DNA of 64,000 nt, from assembly GCA_020347565.1 (NCBI GenBank), contig CP070732.1, positions 960,847-1,024,846 on the forward strand, given 5' to 3'. Numbering within the stretch: the stretch's first letter is position 1; each line of letters starts with the position of its first letter. Under the pieces are notes generated by a model. That model searched no databases, was not told where the DNA came from, and saw only the letters and a program-made list of their open reading frames with translations. The position numbers and the translations under genes were made by a program. The stretch is from Methanobacteriota archaeon (GTDB lineage Archaea; Thermoplasmatota; Thermoplasmata; UBA10834). This document shows positions 52,172-62,547 of the stretch, piece after piece.

Positions 52172-52528
52172 ATGAGCAAGCACGAGCTAGGAATAGCTCA
52201 GATACTGACTGACCAGTACAACATGAACATTCTTGCCGCCACCAGCCACAAGGCGAGGAGCGCCCGAGAGCTCGCTTTCATGTTCGACATACCGCTGGCG
52301 AGCTGCTACCGAAAACTGCGAGAGCTAGCTTCGGCGGGCCTCGTGGAACAGGAGGGCAGCGAGCTGACAGCGGACGGCAAGCGGTACAAAGTCTACAGGT
52401 CGAAGATAGGATGCGTGACTCTCACTTACGAGAAGGGCATACTCCACATGAAGGTCGATCTGAACTACCGCTCAGCGCCGCTCGAGATAACGCAGAACAT
52501 GGCCACGCCAAAGCCCAGAGAGCTGTAG
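52172..52528 (+). CDS. Winged-helix regulator, archaellum-linked paralogue 2
   Basis: A 118-residue winged-helix protein (SKHELGIAQILTDQYNMNIL, RELAFMFDIPLASCYRKLRE, GLVEQEGSELTADGKRYK) paralogous to the divergent 51524-51865 gene. It resembles the size and fold of EarA, the archaellum regulator of Methanococcus, but direct orthology is not shown. ATG 52172 is the only clear start; a GGAGGGGG 34 bases upstream fits no in-frame start codon, so the start could lie earlier at a non-standard codon. Together with its partner it is the best candidate regulator of the downstream arl genes. Confidence 0.72.
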   Translation: MSKHELGIAQILTDQYNMNILAATSHKARSARELAFMFDIPLASCYRKLRELASAGLVEQEGSELTADGKRYKVYRSKIGCVTLTYEKGILHMKVDLNYRSAPLEITQNMATPKPREL

Positions 52529-54435: not shown

Positions 54436-56154
54436 ATGGGGCTCAAGAAGTTCAAGACGAACATCTGTGACGACGAAGAGGCAGACATCGGCATTGGCAC
54501 GCTCATCATCTTCATAGCCATCGTCCTTGTCTCAGCCATAGCTGCGTCTCTGATGCTATATGCAGCAGCGCTGCTCCAACAGCAGGCGCAGAAGACCGTG
54601 GACGACGCCGTCTCAGACGTCTCCGGAGGCATATCGGTCGTGAACGTAGCGGGCGACCGGAACCCGGAGGGCGAGGCGACTTCGATCGTCTCAGGCTACA
54701 TGCCCCCGAGAGATGACCAACCACCTAGCGGAGGCGCGTTATGGGACGTGACTTGCTCGGCGGATGGCGTGTCACCCCTCAACATGGTTCTGAACTGGAC
54801 CTCTGCGGTCGATTACGGATCGGGTCTATCGGAGGAGATCGTGTACAGGACTGAAGTGTACGACCCCACGAACCCCGCATCTTTCAATGAGCAAGTCGCC
54901 CGAAACAGGCTCCTCACGCTCGAGCAGCTGAACCCGACCTATGAGCTGGTGCGTCTGACCCCCGATCCTGGACAGAGTGGACAGTACACGGACTATAGTG
55001 TAAGGGATGACAACTCCACATCCTACGCCTATGCCATCGTCGGCGTGGACAAAGCAGGCAATCGCGCACTCTACAACGCCGTGGATAGCTCGGCGTCTAC
55101 TGACAGCTCGACCCTCGATGAGGACGTGACCGCTCCGATCGGAGGCTCGATGACCAACACGGCAGCGATCGACGACTACACACTGGCCGTCTTCTGGGTT
55201 CCGGCCTCCGATGTTGGCAGTGGCGTCCTAGAGCAACACCTCTACCGCAGCGAGAGCCCTATCGGCGTAGTGCCAACACAGATCCTGGACGGACGGACCG
55301 TTCTGGCGATTCCCAACGCCACGCTTCTGGCCGTGTTCAACTCAACCACATCAAGCTATGTGGACGCGCCCCCCGCACCAGGTGGCTACTACTACTTCGT
55401 AGTGGCGCATGACAGATCGGGCAATCAAGCGCTTCTTGGCTCGCTGATGTACTCGGCAGAATCCGCAGACATGATCCCGCCGACCGCTGCGAGCAGCGTC
55501 TCGGCCAGACAGGCCGTGCAATCCGTCGCGTTGACCTGGGGCGAGGCGGCCGACGGGGAGACGACGATCGCGAAGTACCTTGTATTCAGAAGCACCGCAT
55601 ACTCGGCCCTTGACAGCGTGGAGGAGCTGATGAGCATGGAACCGCTCGCAGAACTCGACAGCGACACATTCGCTTACGCGGACTACTCGGGCGCGACGGG
55701 ATATCTGTACTACTACACAGTCATAGGCGTCGACCTCGCTGGCAATTATGCTCAGCCCGTGACACCGTCGAACACGGTACAGATGATAGAGATCAAGGTG
55801 GAGACGGTACCTGGAAGCAAGCCGATCCTCTTCACGTCGCTGATGATCGAGATCACCGATGGGGAAACCGATGCAACGTTATCGTTCAACCCGAACGTGC
55901 TCGGGCCAGCAGGTGCGACGGGAACCGCATACTCTGTCGAGATACTCAGGGATATCAACGGCGTCTTCGCGTCGACCTACTCGCTGAGCGACAGCGGCCT
56001 CGTCAAGATATTCATAGACGCCGGAGAGATAGGCTTGAACCTCCATGCACAGTCGTCGTTCTCGCTCAAGTTCATACCCACAATCGGTCAACCGACCTTG
56101 GAGGAGTGCAAGATACCGTATCTGGGATCCTATAGGTACGTCACTCTCGTGTGA
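54436..56154 (+). CDS. arlB2: Archaellin with three inserted FN3-like domains
   Basis: A 572-residue archaellin, nearly three times normal size. Residues 1-75 give a class III signal (CDDEEAD, cut before IGIG) and the archaellin helix IGIGTLIIFIAIVLVSAIAA. Three fibronectin-III-like domains follow at about 103-215, 245-340 and 348-445, each with the LxWxxA...GxxYYxV(V/I)GVDxAGN pattern (AIVGVDKAGNR, VVAHDRSGNQ, VIGVDLAGNY). Residues 450-572 are the archaellin beta domain, alignable with archaellin 3 (SKPILFTSLMIEI, SFSLKFIPTIGQPTLEE). The FN3 block is therefore inserted between helix and beta domain. Four N-x-S/T sites are present. It may be a minor, tip or adhesive subunit. Confidence 0.85.
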   Translation: MGLKKFKTNICDDEEADIGIGTLIIFIAIVLVSAIAASLMLYAAALLQQQAQKTVDDAVSDVSGGISVVNVAGDRNPEGEATSIVSGYMPPRDDQPPSGGALWDVTCSADGVSPLNMVLNWTSAVDYGSGLSEEIVYRTEVYDPTNPASFNEQVARNRLLTLEQLNPTYELVRLTPDPGQSGQYTDYSVRDDNSTSYAYAIVGVDKAGNRALYNAVDSSASTDSSTLDEDVTAPIGGSMTNTAAIDDYTLAVFWVPASDVGSGVLEQHLYRSESPIGVVPTQILDGRTVLAIPNATLLAVFNSTTSSYVDAPPAPGGYYYFVVAHDRSGNQALLGSLMYSAESADMIPPTAASSVSARQAVQSVALTWGEAADGETTIAKYLVFRSTAYSALDSVEELMSMEPLAELDSDTFAYADYSGATGYLYYYTVIGVDLAGNYAQPVTPSNTVQMIEIKVETVPGSKPILFTSLMIEITDGETDATLSFNPNVLGPAGATGTAYSVEILRDINGVFASTYSLSDSGLVKIFIDAGEIGLNLHAQSSFSLKFIPTIGQPTLEECKIPYLGSYRYVTLV

Positions 56155-57390: not shown

Positions 57391-58551
57391 ATGGTCGCCC
57401 TGTTCCGAAAGAAGCCAGCTAAAGGCGAATCCTCCAGCCGAAGGAAGCTGAAGGACTTCGAGGATAGGTATGGCGAGGGGACGGAAGAGGAGGCCTATGA
57501 GGAGCTTCGACAGGAGGAGAGCGGCCAAGGCGATTGGCCGCCTCAAGAGGGCGAGGACGACTACGCGTACGAAGGAGAGGACAGCGACGCACTCTCTGGA
57601 GTGAAGGAACTCAGTGAGATACTTGGCCGCCTCGAGGAAATCGAGGACAAGATCGGGAGAATAGACTCCGCTCTGACAACGGAGAAGAGCGAAGGCGCCA
57701 AGGATCGAGAGCGACTGAACCAGATGGAGCAGGACATAAGGAAGCTCCTTTCCGTATACGAGGTCGTCTCCGCCAAGTTCAATCCATTCATCGATGTCTC
57801 CGAAGATGGAACTCCAAGGCCGGTGACGAAGGCGCAGCCTTCGAATGGCATTGAATTCCCGGAGATCAAACTGGATGGAGACCTGCCGGAGTTCAGGCCC
57901 CTCGGAGACGAAGGCGAGGAACAGCCTTTCGAGAGCGGAAGGCCTTCTGAAGCCACTCGGGACACCACCCCGTGGGAGCCAGGGACGCCGACCGAGACCC
58001 TGTTGACCGTGAAACAGAAGACGAGGACGCCGTCACCCCCGCCCCGACTCAACAAGGAGTCGCGGGACGCAGACTACGAGATGGAGGTACGCGCAGCTGC
58101 TAGAAGCAAGCACAACAAGAAGCCGCTGCTGGCCTACATACCCTATGACTACCTCACGCTCGTGCTCGTCATGCGATGGATAGAGTTCATGTTCGAGCGA
58201 GTGCCGAGAGACAAGATGTCGCTCGTACTGGACTACTACGTTGATGTCGGGTTGATAAGCGAGGACGTGAAGTCGGAATTCATGTCCTATGCGAGAGGGG
58301 AGATGCAGGACGTCACCAAGTACATGGGATACGAAGAGGCTCGGGAAGAGGTCTTCAAGGACCTACCAGCTCCTCAGGCCGCTCCGTACAAGAAGGTGGA
58401 GGACTGGAGACTGTCGGCCGATGATCATCTCAAATCCCTGCTCTTCATCCAGAAGATCGCGGGTCTCGAGATCGACAAGGATCGGCTAAACTCCCTAGAA
58501 CAGAACATCTCGAAGTTCAAGGAGAGCTTGGAGGGCTTTCATGGGGTTTAG
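57391..58551 (+). CDS. arlCDE: ArlC/D/E fusion-type archaellum protein
   Basis: A 386-residue cytoplasmic protein. The N-terminal 130 residues are charged with a coiled coil (LGRLEEIEDKIGRIDSALTT, ERLNQMEQDIRKLLSVYEVV) like ArlC/D. A Pro/Glu-rich linker follows. The C-terminal 150 residues are an ArlD/E domain (LVLVMRWIEFMFERVPRDKM, DWRLSADDHLKSLLFIQKIA). These proteins link the motor to the chemotaxis adaptor CheF and switch complex. GGTG precedes ATG 57391. Its stop overlaps the arlF start by 11 bases. Confidence 0.85.
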   Translation: MVALFRKKPAKGESSSRRKLKDFEDRYGEGTEEEAYEELRQEESGQGDWPPQEGEDDYAYEGEDSDALSGVKELSEILGRLEEIEDKIGRIDSALTTEKSEGAKDRERLNQMEQDIRKLLSVYEVVSAKFNPFIDVSEDGTPRPVTKAQPSNGIEFPEIKLDGDLPEFRPLGDEGEEQPFESGRPSEATRDTTPWEPGTPTETLLTVKQKTRTPSPPPRLNKESRDADYEMEVRAAARSKHNKKPLLAYIPYDYLTLVLVMRWIEFMFERVPRDKMSLVLDYYVDVGLISEDVKSEFMSYARGEMQDVTKYMGYEEAREEVFKDLPAPQAAPYKKVEDWRLSADDHLKSLLFIQKIAGLEIDKDRLNSLEQNISKFKESLEGFHGV

Positions 58552-59734
58552 TGTCTCGGCAACAATGGCGATATTCTTCGCCACCTTTCTCATCCTTTTT
58601 TCTATACTCTACTCCTCGGTAGACGATGCTTTCGAAACCGTCTCCGAATCATTCGACGACAGATACGAGTACTTGAGCGAAAGGGCACAGACAGACCTGG
58701 ACATCATTTGCCTATCATACTTCAAGGACACTGACACTTTCGAAGCGCGACTGCGGAACTCCGGGAGCGTTGCCTTGGACACAGACAAGGTGCGGCTGCT
58801 CCTGGACGGAGTCTTACAGACGGGCGCGACGGCGGAGGTCACAGGCGAGACGACGGACTTATGGCTACCTTCGGAGGCACTGGCCATAGCGCTCGAGGAG
58901 CCGAACCTGACATTCGACCCGTCGGTATCGATCAGGACGCACGCCTTCAGTGACGCCGGCCTCTCGGGTCCGTCAAACATATCGGTCGGCCACTCGGTCT
59001 ACGTTATCGATGGGACGCACGTGGACGTGTTCACACTCGACGGCGTCTTCGACTACACGATATCCGATTCGACGAACATCGTTTCACCATCGGACATCAA
59101 GGCGTATGGGGACTATCTGTATGTGCTCGACGAAGGCACGCACATAGACCGCGTTGATCTTGACGGAGATTGGGTGGACCGCCACGTGTACGACCTGACC
59201 AACACGTCGACCCCGACATCGTTTGCCGTCGACTCCTCGTACATGTATGTCATAGACAACAGCGCCCACGTAGACCGGTACAACCTGACCACTGGACTCT
59301 TCGTCGACCAGCTCATCGCCAACGGAGGGTCGATGAGCGCGCCACAGGACATATCAGTTGGCGCGTACCTCTTCGTCATCGACGAGTCGTCAGGCAGCCA
59401 TCATATGGACAGATACTATCTTGACGGGACGGGCGGGGTGCAGATAGTGACTTCGGCAATGCTTTCCTCGCCCACGGACGTCTCGGCATCGGCGTCACAA
59501 CTCTACGAGAGGTACGTATACGTCGTGAACAACAGCAGGGAGATCCTGGTGCTCAACGAAACCGGGGCACCAGTCGCAAGAGTGGACAGCGGTTTGAGCG
59601 ACTCCGTCTCGGGAGTCGACGTGACGGGTAGGATATTCGTCTCAGATGGAACGAATGGCCTCGTGATCGAATACCTCGGCACGAGCGTGAAGATAGTTGC
59701 AGAGAACGGCGTCTCAGAGGTTGCATTGTTATGA
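58541..59734 (+). CDS. arlF: ArlF with inserted six-bladed beta-propeller
   Basis: A 397-residue ArlF; usual length is about 130-170. Residues 1-25 are the membrane helix (MAIFFATFLILFSILY). About 55-142 is the ArlF beta-sandwich (LRNSGSVALDTDKVRLLLDG, WLPSEALAIALEEPNL). About 145-380 is an insert of six repeats of about 40 residues (YVIDGTHVDVFTLDG, YVLDEGTHIDRVDLDGD, YVIDNSAHVDRYNL, FVIDESSGSHHMDRYYLDG and so on), a beta-propeller. The last ArlF strand, VKIVAENGVSEVALL, resumes at the end, as shown by VQVTTENGVTDT at the same place in ArlG. ArlF binds the S-layer outside the membrane, so the propeller would face outward. Confidence 0.82.
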   Translation: MGFSVSATMAIFFATFLILFSILYSSVDDAFETVSESFDDRYEYLSERAQTDLDIICLSYFKDTDTFEARLRNSGSVALDTDKVRLLLDGVLQTGATAEVTGETTDLWLPSEALAIALEEPNLTFDPSVSIRTHAFSDAGLSGPSNISVGHSVYVIDGTHVDVFTLDGVFDYTISDSTNIVSPSDIKAYGDYLYVLDEGTHIDRVDLDGDWVDRHVYDLTNTSTPTSFAVDSSYMYVIDNSAHVDRYNLTTGLFVDQLIANGGSMSAPQDISVGAYLFVIDESSGSHHMDRYYLDGTGGVQIVTSAMLSSPTDVSASASQLYERYVYVVNNSREILVLNETGAPVARVDSGLSDSVSGVDVTGRIFVSDGTNGLVIEYLGTSVKIVAENGVSEVALL

Positions 59735-59749
59735 CAGGATGTGTGTGAT

Positions 59750-60187
59750 ATGGGCGCAAGTGGAAGCACTACTCAATTGGTGTTCTTCGTCTCCGCGATA
59801 ATCGTAGCCACCGCAGTGGTGGCAGTGGCCGCAAACAGCGTGTACGAACTTACGACGGGGATAGACGACAGGAGCAATCAGATAAGCGATGAGATGTCTA
59901 CGCGCATAGAGATCATCAACGACCCGTCTTCGGTCCCGAACAACCCCGTCCTGATATACGTTCAGAACCAGGGCACAACCGTGCTCAACCATAACTATAT
60001 CATTGCGATGTTGGATGGTACTGCAGTGGTCGACCCTGATCTGTCGCTAACTGGGAACATTACCACGCACTGGGACCCGTCCAGCATACTGACAATTTCC
60101 ATCGACCAGAACCTGGCGTCAGGGGACCACATCGTGCAGGTGACCACCGAGAACGGGGTCACGGACACGATGAGCTTCCGAATATGA
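59750..60187 (+). CDS. arlG: ArlG, archaellum stator protein
   Basis: A 145-residue protein of normal ArlG size: N-terminal membrane helix (LVFFVSAIIVATAVVAVAAN) and a beta-sandwich with PVLIYVQNQGTTVLNHNYII and the closing HIVQVTTENGVTDTMSF. ArlG filaments with ArlF anchor the motor to the S-layer. ATG 59750 is preferred; a GTG three codons earlier is possible. It lies 15 bases after arlF. Confidence 0.88.
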   Translation: MGASGSTTQLVFFVSAIIVATAVVAVAANSVYELTTGIDDRSNQISDEMSTRIEIINDPSSVPNNPVLIYVQNQGTTVLNHNYIIAMLDGTAVVDPDLSLTGNITTHWDPSSILTISIDQNLASGDHIVQVTTENGVTDTMSFRI

Positions 60188-60206
60188 AGTGGAGGTGGAT
60201 CCCCCC

Positions 60207-60905
60207 TTGGGCGACACCTACAGGCTACAGATACCGAGAGACGACCTGCATGACCAGCTAGGCCAAGGCCTTCCGGCAGGTACGATAACGCTCATGGAAG
60301 GGGCCAAGGGGTCTGGAAAGAGCGCGGTTGTCCAGCGGATGATCTACGGATTCCTCTCGAACCAGTACACCGTAACGTCCATATCGACCGAGCTAACGGT
60401 CAAGGACTTCATAAACCAGATGTACTCTCTGGACTATCCTATCGCTTCATGGCTACTCGATGGAAAGCTGAAGTTCGTCCCAGTCTATCCGCTCGTCGGG
60501 AACGCCAGGAGCAGGGTCGACTTCCTCGGTATGCTGATGAGTTCGCGCGACCTTTACACGAGCGATGTGATAGTCATAGACACCTTCTCGAGCCTTGTAA
60601 GCAACAGCTTGCGAGGCGAGGAAAACAGCATCAAGGTCCTTTCGTTCTTCAAGAGACTAGCAGGCATGAACAAGAGCATCGTCATAACCATCGATCCAGA
60701 GGAGATGAACGGCAAGGTCCTCGCGCCGTTCGAGTCGGACAGTCACGTCTACCTGAGCCTCGTAGTGTCCCAGGTGGGAGGCATAATATCAAGGAGCATA
60801 ATGGTCAAGAGGTTCGCCAGCACTCAGTACAGAGTGTCACCGATGATAGGCTTCCGAATCGAGCCCAACGTGGGCATGGTCATCGAGATAACCTCCGTGG
60901 TGTGA
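60207..60905 (+). CDS. arlH: ArlH, KaiC-like archaellum motor ATPase
   Basis: A 232-residue RecA/KaiC-type protein. Walker A is EGAKGSGKSAV and Walker B VIVIDTFSSL, followed by LRGEENSIKVLSFFKRLAGM. ArlH forms a ring around ArlI and probably acts as a regulator switching by ATP binding. TTG 60207, with GGAGGTGG eight bases before it, is the best start; GTG 60189 and GTG 60195 are alternatives. It follows arlG by a few bases. Confidence 0.88.
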   Translation: MGDTYRLQIPRDDLHDQLGQGLPAGTITLMEGAKGSGKSAVVQRMIYGFLSNQYTVTSISTELTVKDFINQMYSLDYPIASWLLDGKLKFVPVYPLVGNARSRVDFLGMLMSSRDLYTSDVIVIDTFSSLVSNSLRGEENSIKVLSFFKRLAGMNKSIVITIDPEEMNGKVLAPFESDSHVYLSLVVSQVGGIISRSIMVKRFASTQYRVSPMIGFRIEPNVGMVIEITSVV

Positions 60906-60906
60906 G

Positions 60907-62547
60907 GTGATCACCATTCCGACGAGGCTGAGCAAGGTCCTGCAGAGGAACCCGCACCTCAGCCTATACCTCCAGAAATACGCTCAAGAGACTAAGGAGA
61001 CGCCGAAGTTCATGGACGCCCTCTCTAAGGACATCGGAAAGGAGAGTGAGGTCAACGTTGTGTATCCTGTGGGTGATCCCATTTTCATCCACCTGCACGG
61101 GTCGAAGGACGAGGGACAGCACTACGACGTCATTGAGCCACTCATGGAAGAGGAAGTCGAGGATAGCTACAAGCAGATCGTCGAGAAGATATTCCTGCTA
61201 TCGGGAAAGGAGAGGGTGCACGTGACCGACGAGGAGTTCAACGAGGTACTGGACCGGCTCCTCGAGGACATCGTCGTGGTCTCCGACAGAGGGGGCCCCT
61301 CCAAGCTCGTCCAGCTCATCAAACCAAGTTCGAAGATATTCATGGGCCACGAGGATTATGAGATCGTCAAGTACTATGTGAAGAGGGACATACTGCAGAA
61401 CGGCATACTCGAGCCGGTGCTTCGCGATCCATACATAGAGGATATACACTGCGTTGGCGCTCGAGAGATCAACCTCTACCACAAGATTCTGGGCATGGTG
61501 GAGACGAACATACAGTTTGGTGACGTCGAGAGGCTCGACAGGTATACGAAGAGCATGAGCGACAGGATGGGAAGACCGGCATCTATCTCCAGACCCATCA
61601 TCGACGGCGCACTTCCTGACGGTTCACGTATCAACATAATCTACGCGGACGATGTGAGCGTCAGTGGGCCGACCTTCACCATCAGGAAGTTCTCGACAGA
61701 GCCCCTGAGCGCCGCCCAGCTGGCCGGCTGGAAGACCATATCGCCTCAGGAAGCCGCCTACCTCTGGCTCTGCCTCGAGAACGGCATGAGCGTCTTTGTC
61801 TGCGGTGAGACGGCGTCAGGAAAGACGACTCTGCTCAACGCGATATTCCCATTCATCCGATACGACCAGAAAATCTTCTCGGCGGAGGACACGCTCGAGG
61901 TGCAGCCGCCGCATTCGGTATGGCAGCAGCTATCCACGAGGGAGTTCGGGCCTGAGGAGAGCAAAGTCGACACCTTCGCGCTTCTGAGGTCAGGTCTGAG
62001 GTCGAGACCGAACTACATCGTCGTGGGCGAGATAAGGGGGAAGGAGGGGAATGTGGCCTTCCAGGCCATGCAGACGGGCATTCCCGTCATGGCGACCTTC
62101 CACGCGGCGTCAATCAAGAGAATGATCCAGAGGTTCACGGGATCGCCGATCAACGTGCCCGTGACGAGCATGGACAACCTCAACGTGGCAGTGTTCCTGG
62201 CTGGCGTCTACAGGGACGGCAAGCTGATAAGGCGTGCGCTTTCCATCGAGGAAATCCTCGGCTACAGCGAGTCCATGGGGGGCGTGATGACGAGGGCCGT
62301 CTTCGTCTGGAACCCGGTGAATGACCAACACCTCTTCCGCGGTATGAACAACTCGTACATACTCGAGGAGAGGATCGCCGTGAAGCGCGGCTACAAGGAC
62401 AAGCGGGACATCTACAAGGAGCTTGCCCTCAGGGCGAGGATCATCGACAAGATGATCGAGATGAACATGACCAACTACAAGACGGTAAACGACATATTGA
62501 GGGCATTCCAGAAGGAAGGCGTCTCCGGCCTGCCGTTCACGGTATGA
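60907..62547 (+). CDS. arlI: ArlI, archaellum assembly and rotation ATPase (copy 1)
   Basis: A 546-residue secretion-type hexameric ATPase that both assembles and turns the archaellum. Visible motifs: LRDPYIEDIHCVGAREI, GRPASISRPIIDGALPDGSR, Walker A CGETASGKTTLLNA, the Asp box AEDTLEVQPPHSVWQQ, Walker B YIVVGEIRGKEG and His box MATFHAAS. GTG 60907 follows the arlH stop by one base, with GGTGTGA upstream. A closely related second copy follows. Confidence 0.93.
   Translation: MITIPTRLSKVLQRNPHLSLYLQKYAQETKETPKFMDALSKDIGKESEVNVVYPVGDPIFIHLHGSKDEGQHYDVIEPLMEEEVEDSYKQIVEKIFLLSGKERVHVTDEEFNEVLDRLLEDIVVVSDRGGPSKLVQLIKPSSKIFMGHEDYEIVKYYVKRDILQNGILEPVLRDPYIEDIHCVGAREINLYHKILGMVETNIQFGDVERLDRYTKSMSDRMGRPASISRPIIDGALPDGSRINIIYADDVSVSGPTFTIRKFSTEPLSAAQLAGWKTISPQEAAYLWLCLENGMSVFVCGETASGKTTLLNAIFPFIRYDQKIFSAEDTLEVQPPHSVWQQLSTREFGPEESKVDTFALLRSGLRSRPNYIVVGEIRGKEGNVAFQAMQTGIPVMATFHAASIKRMIQRFTGSPINVPVTSMDNLNVAVFLAGVYRDGKLIRRALSIEEILGYSESMGGVMTRAVFVWNPVNDQHLFRGMNNSYILEERIAVKRGYKDKRDIYKELALRARIIDKMIEMNMTNYKTVNDILRAFQKEGVSGLPFTV

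Follow-up and report, generated by a model that had tools for sequence, protein, structure and literature searches.

Examination of the 64,000-nucleotide stretch of DNA considered here (the window) revealed an archaellum gene cluster containing an ORF at 58541..59734 on the forward strand, free of internal stop codons and encoding a protein of 397 residues. Upstream, archaellin and an arlCDE fusion (57391..58551, +; Pfam FlaC_arch and Arch_fla_DE) are encoded, with the end of the latter overlapping the start of the ORF by 11 bases. Downstream lie, in turn, arlG, of ordinary length (59741..60187, +; NCBIfam ArlG, 87.5 bits), arlH (60189..60905, +; NCBIfam ArlH, 242.5 bits), and arlI, encoding the motor ATPase (60907..62547, +; NCBIfam archaellum motor, 730.9 bits). 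As such, the ORF occupies the position in the gene order by which arlF is recognized.

The arlI gene is followed by a second, tandem gene for an archaellum motor ATPase (ArlI), extending from about 62748 to beyond 64000. The Walker A motif (GETASGKTT) is intact in both ArlI proteins, each of which scores more than 700 bits against the archaellum motor model; the other genomes of the order that have an archaellum share the tandem, and in one of these (G019) both copies are contained within a single open frame of 1157 aa. The archaellin encoded at 54436-56154 (572 aa) represents a second elaborated subunit of the operon, its N-terminal archaellin helix and archaellin-like C-terminal end being separated by some 370 residues that resemble fibronectin/Ig-type repeats. 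At the upstream end of the cluster, a small winged-helix regulator (52172-52528) could be a local motility regulator. Beyond the window, downstream of the gene in the arlJ position, a secreted protein of 1040 aa with BNR-like, CARDB, and NPCBM-associated domains is encoded beside the archaellum operon (L099:6244-9363) and is a possible candidate surface partner.

When the 397-residue protein was compared with the NCBIfam ArlF model, residues 1-120 were matched (100.7 bits, E 7e-29), with the match ending at position 121 of the 137 in the profile. This score is below the NCBI curated cut-off of 110 bits, a shortfall that coincides with the split of the last strand considered below; the corresponding protein of Aciduliprofundum boonei reaches only 32.1 bits. 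Automatic annotation using that model would therefore miss these proteins. Such divergence could be taken to mean that the protein has lost its role in the stator and become a specialized minor archaellin or tip protein, a reading rendered very improbable by the position of the gene beside arlG, by a match to ArlF that is far better than that to ArlG, and by the fact that no other arlF was found in those genomes of the order that encode this form of ArlF. Indeed, the helix, the β-sandwich, and the conserved last strand seen in ArlF are all present, as judged from an AlphaFold2 model and a splice test. The identification of the protein as ArlF, offered in an earlier note made from the sequence alone, was thus supported by operon position, alongside the profile match below cut-off. 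The product of 58541-59734 is a genuine ArlF, the last β-hairpin loop of which is expanded by a predicted six-bladed NHL/YWTD-type β-propeller.

According to AlphaFold2 and DSSP, residues 5-49 (58553..58687, +) form the N-terminal membrane helix. Residues 50-133 (58688..58939, +) comprise the ArlF β-sandwich up to its penultimate strand, as delineated by the profile match and by the strands of the model (53-61, 66-73, 85-88, 99-101, and 113-119). The last ArlF strand and the C-terminus, namely, residues 382-397 (SVKIVAENGVSEVALL; 59684..59731, +), were assigned on the basis of conservation and the splice test, in which residues 1-120 were joined to every 17-residue segment of the remainder of the protein and scored against an HMM built from 19 short ArlF sequences of the phylum. 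The highest score, 108.8 bits, was obtained with residues 377-393, as compared to a mean of 93.7 bits (SD 2.3; 261 segments). As this best segment is C-terminal, the tail corresponds to the missing last ArlF strand. Within it, K384, V386, and G390 are invariant in both lineages that carry the propeller, i.e., this order and Aciduliprofundum. The split fold proposed in the earlier note is hence confirmed, and the match drawn there between the C-terminal strand and the neighboring ArlG is supported; the extra residues preceding that strand, put at about 235, number about 248 (134-381). Profile alignment places the insertion in the loop joining the TLTII and ATVVIV strands of Sulfolobus FlaF (4p94), with the alignment of the tail being weak when taken alone.

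The inserted region, residues 134-381 (58940..59683, +), was assigned as a six-bladed NHL/YWTD-like β-propeller by modeling of the isolated domain, Foldseek, and a repeat test. Internal repetition was strongest at a lag of 42 residues, with a diagonal score of 59, whereas none of 300 column shuffles exceeded 23.4. AlphaFold2 modeling of the whole protein, performed with seven homologues (mean pLDDT 80, pTM 0.75; mostly 80-93 in the insert), predicted a 45-residue helix, the sandwich, a six-bladed propeller, and the final strand, in that order; when modeled alone, the insert yielded a pLDDT of 88.4 and a pTM of 0.88. The isolated model contains 23 strands: five of the blades have four strands each, one has three, and a short closing strand lies close to the N-terminus. 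Judging from this predicted secondary structure, the pattern would be that expected of a six-bladed propeller in which a single borrowed strand completes the ring. When the isolated insert was compared to the PDB by Foldseek, NHL domains came first, with Brat (E 2.6e-11, TMq 0.75), TRIM71 (0.79), and Mei-P26 (0.78) being identified; the YWTD propellers of LRP6 were among the matches as well. The propeller originally posited, for which a comparison with NHL or YVTN structures had been suggested, is thus predicted, with good confidence, to be six-bladed and to be closest to NHL domains.

The description of six regular repeats, each containing Y-V-I/L-D and H-x-D-R, held only in part. The sixfold repetition is present, and five blades have the Y-V-I/L-D strand, with a loose version of it (IFVSD) in the remaining one, but the complete H-x-D-R motif occurs in only three of the six (201-204, 243-246, and 288-291). 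H201, D203, R204, H243, D245, R246, H288, and D290 are invariant across the eight homologues from the order. As these residues are not conserved in Aciduliprofundum, any binding site at this motif would be lineage-specific. Pfam returned no match of the protein to the NHL or YWTD repeat families, and the LVIVD scores obtained with the protein (12.4 bits) and with its best homologue (18.4 bits) are both below the cut-off of 20.2 bits. With all Pfam matches being below cut-off, no close sequence family with a known ligand was found for the propeller, and a PDB search with the sequence of the whole protein yielded only weak matches to TolB propellers. No paralogue of the propeller was found in the same genome, which therefore offers no local donor of the domain; nor were relatives found in viral contigs.

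To consider ArlF lengths among relatives, as had been suggested, 21 genomes of the order were surveyed, with an archaellum motor being called above the curated cut-off. Each of the eight genomes with a motor encodes the long, propeller-containing ArlF, and the other 13 lack both. ArlF-like matches were found in 68 of 400 genomes across the class; elsewhere in the surveyed Thermoplasmatota, ordinary ArlF comprises some 140 aa, with the exceptions being the propeller forms and two genomes with different modules. In a second family (f14; 13 genomes), ArlF comprises about 355 aa, and a homologous propeller is inserted at the corresponding point. One of these genomes (G032) we take to be the finished isolate genome of the cultured A. 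boonei T469; it encodes a single ArlI. The inserts of the two lineages match one another (98.8%, E 1e-16, 196 columns), as do the full-length proteins (E 2.9e-27, 343 columns), with the propellers aligning blade by blade and gaps falling in loops.

These distributions speak to the possibility that the insert arose through faulty assembly, chimerism, or a frameshift, with a join at about residue 143 or 380 having been named earlier as grounds for doubt. Eight independent assemblies, in which the proteins share 48-61% identity, present the same length and boundaries, and the propeller is also found in the 13 genomes of the second family, one of them the finished genome of an isolate. An artefact is thus ruled out, with next to no probability being left to it.

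The phylum survey of 390 genomes further revealed an ArlF of 398 aa in a genome of another class (G446), encoded in the same operon and with a propeller-like insert at the corresponding position. Taken alone, this insert shows weak similarity (84%, E 8e-6 pairwise), and a common operon clade including G446 was not rejected (p 0.39); on sequence grounds, its propeller is possibly homologous to that of the window's order. In G408, three PKD domains are appended after a complete ArlF fold (L091:1868-3115), and the adjoining ArlG (L091:3105-4151) consists of three ArlG/CARDB-like units. In G456, a large insert within the ArlF fold includes a laminin-G domain, with the gene apparently being split over two contigs (L097:3-374 and L092:1-1209); a DUF2341-like start of this insert, seen by eye, was not confirmed by Pfam. 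G456 also contains the ArlI tandem. A genome with a propeller-containing ArlF locus harbors, in addition, a second and different archaellum locus encoding a short ArlF of 144 aa (L070; G205:C13:46000-49500).

The insert is under purifying selection, with a dN of 0.039 as compared to a dS of 0.276 for the closest pair and a dN/dS of about 0.1 within Aciduliprofundum. In the ArlH tree, the window's order and the Aciduliprofundum family are grouped (88/93); species-like groupings were not significantly rejected by ArlH (p 0.09 and 0.13). By contrast, RpoB strongly rejected the two as sisters forming a single vertical clade (AU p 2e-12). Either the operon was transferred or a single ancient insertion was followed by losses, both origins being possible.

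In the current view, ArlF caps the stator filament formed by ArlG and binds the S-layer; motility is reported to depend on ArlF and ArlG together, with loss of S-layer contact bringing swimming to a stop (PMC8667602, PMC12024892, PMC13319060). Anchoring of the motor to the envelope by the propeller is plausible. The N-terminal helix would serve as the membrane anchor of the propeller-containing ArlF, which would cap the ArlG filament, as in Sulfolobus. On the outer side, the rigid disc of the propeller would bind a cell-surface protein or glycoprotein, whether of the S-layer or other. In this way, the propeller would take over or add to the contact surface that the bare sandwich normally provides, and the static hold against the torque of the motor would be made wider or stronger. 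Adaptation of the archaellum to the envelope would then fall to ArlF. No binding partner of the propeller was found, and the PKD or BNR proteins of the genome, named in the earlier note, are at most hypothetical partners.

We infer this contact because of the S-layer binding reported for ArlF and the need for ArlF-ArlG in motility, and because other ArlF proteins of the phylum carry extracellular binding modules, i.e., the three PKD domains of G408 and the laminin-G domain of G456. A genuine ArlF with a propeller in its last hairpin that provides or strengthens envelope contact is the best explanation, given that the propeller is kept in all archaellated genomes of the order, is under purifying selection, and has a homologue in a second family; overall, we consider it somewhat probable. 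That the propeller instead serves as a spacer or bearing, arranging ArlF and ArlG around the filament or occupying the space that separates the membrane from the surface layer, with no binding of the envelope, is unlikely, since ArlG of the same operon is ordinary in size and sequence, offering no matching change in the known partner, and since other elaborated ArlF proteins use typical extracellular binding domains. This is so even though propellers are frequent protein-protein scaffolds, the insertion sits in a hairpin loop of an oligomerizing subunit, and the surface motif is not common to both propeller lineages.

The propeller could also be an adhesin or a lectin-like sensor at the base of the motor, contacting glycans of the cell's own envelope or outside surfaces and leaving the stator role to the sandwich alone. 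The acidic nature of the domain (pI 4.1), the six N-glycosylation sequons across the whole protein, and the laminin-G module in one other ArlF are consistent with such a role, which is nonetheless quite improbable, as the propeller occurs only with the motor, within the stator operon, and nothing in it was recognized as a known catalytic or lectin signature. STT3, an enzyme of N-glycosylation, is present in genomes with and without an archaellum and is therefore not discriminating. In this order and in Aciduliprofundum, STT3 domains (405 positions; G000:C1:143865-145034 and equivalents) lie within frames of about 2,100-2,200 aa.

Returning to envelope anchoring, the earlier idea that the propeller reflects a different envelope has been weakened. 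A. boonei, with the same propeller, reportedly has an S-layer, such that the propeller is not simply a substitute for contact with a missing S-layer. The S-layer-less Thermoplasmatales examined in PMC12448462, in turn, have a plain ArlF, so that, in the known cases, presence of the propeller does not track absence of the S-layer. Predicted S-layer genes of A. boonei are cited in PMC3750248. In a broader and more tentative reading, which may well be wrong but deserves consideration, ArlF would be an exchangeable envelope adaptor into or onto which lineages insert or append a propeller, PKD repeats, or laminin-G, so that a single kind of motor is coupled to a variety of surface layers, with the propeller form being a distinct stator anchor of this order and Aciduliprofundum.

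No paper linking the archaellum stator with NHL was found in the full-text literature, with an earlier remark in subscription literature being possible; papers mentioning both the archaellum and a β-propeller do not, by their titles and abstracts, have ArlF as their subject, and a census of archaeal pili makes no mention of a propeller. What holds the archaellum motor still is an open question, raised for S-layer-less archaea (PMC12448462) and for archaellated bacteria (PMC13319060). A conserved large domain within the presumed contact subunit, in a cultivated species, renders this question directly testable, as the propeller can be produced alone as bait for a partner and is big enough for cryo-tomography.

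ArlF (FlaF) of Sulfolobus acidocaldarius (PDB 4p94, 5tug, and 6pbk) shares with the protein considered here the N-terminal helix and β-sandwich, the position beside arlG, and the last-strand motif, yet contains a short loop (4p94) where the latter contains a 248-residue propeller. NHL propellers (Brat, 4zlr and 5ex7; TRIM71, 8j72; Mei-P26, 7nyq) share the six-bladed fold (TM 0.75-0.79, isolated domain) but are only 14-19% identical to the insert and are intracellular, RNA-binding domains; the Pfam NHL model gives no match to the window protein and scores far below cut-off for two homologues. The LRP6 YWTD propellers (3s2k, 3s8v) and LVIVD (PF08309) share the Y-x-D ... I-x-R-x-x-L-D-G pattern, with matches to LVIVD being weak; the LRP6 propeller is 18% identical to the insert and is accompanied by an EGF-like domain that the window protein lacks. 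ArlF of the S-layer-less Thermoplasmatales belongs to the same phylum and has the same proposed stator role, but contains no extra domain and shows minor structural differences from other ArlF proteins (PMC12448462). Finally, A. boonei ArlF (G032, L009:1855-2919; 355 aa) shares the homologous propeller, the insertion point, the terminal strand, and the arlG-arlH-arlI neighbors, and differs in that its insert is some 30 residues shorter and without H-x-D-R, and in that no arlCDE lies between archaellin and arlF.
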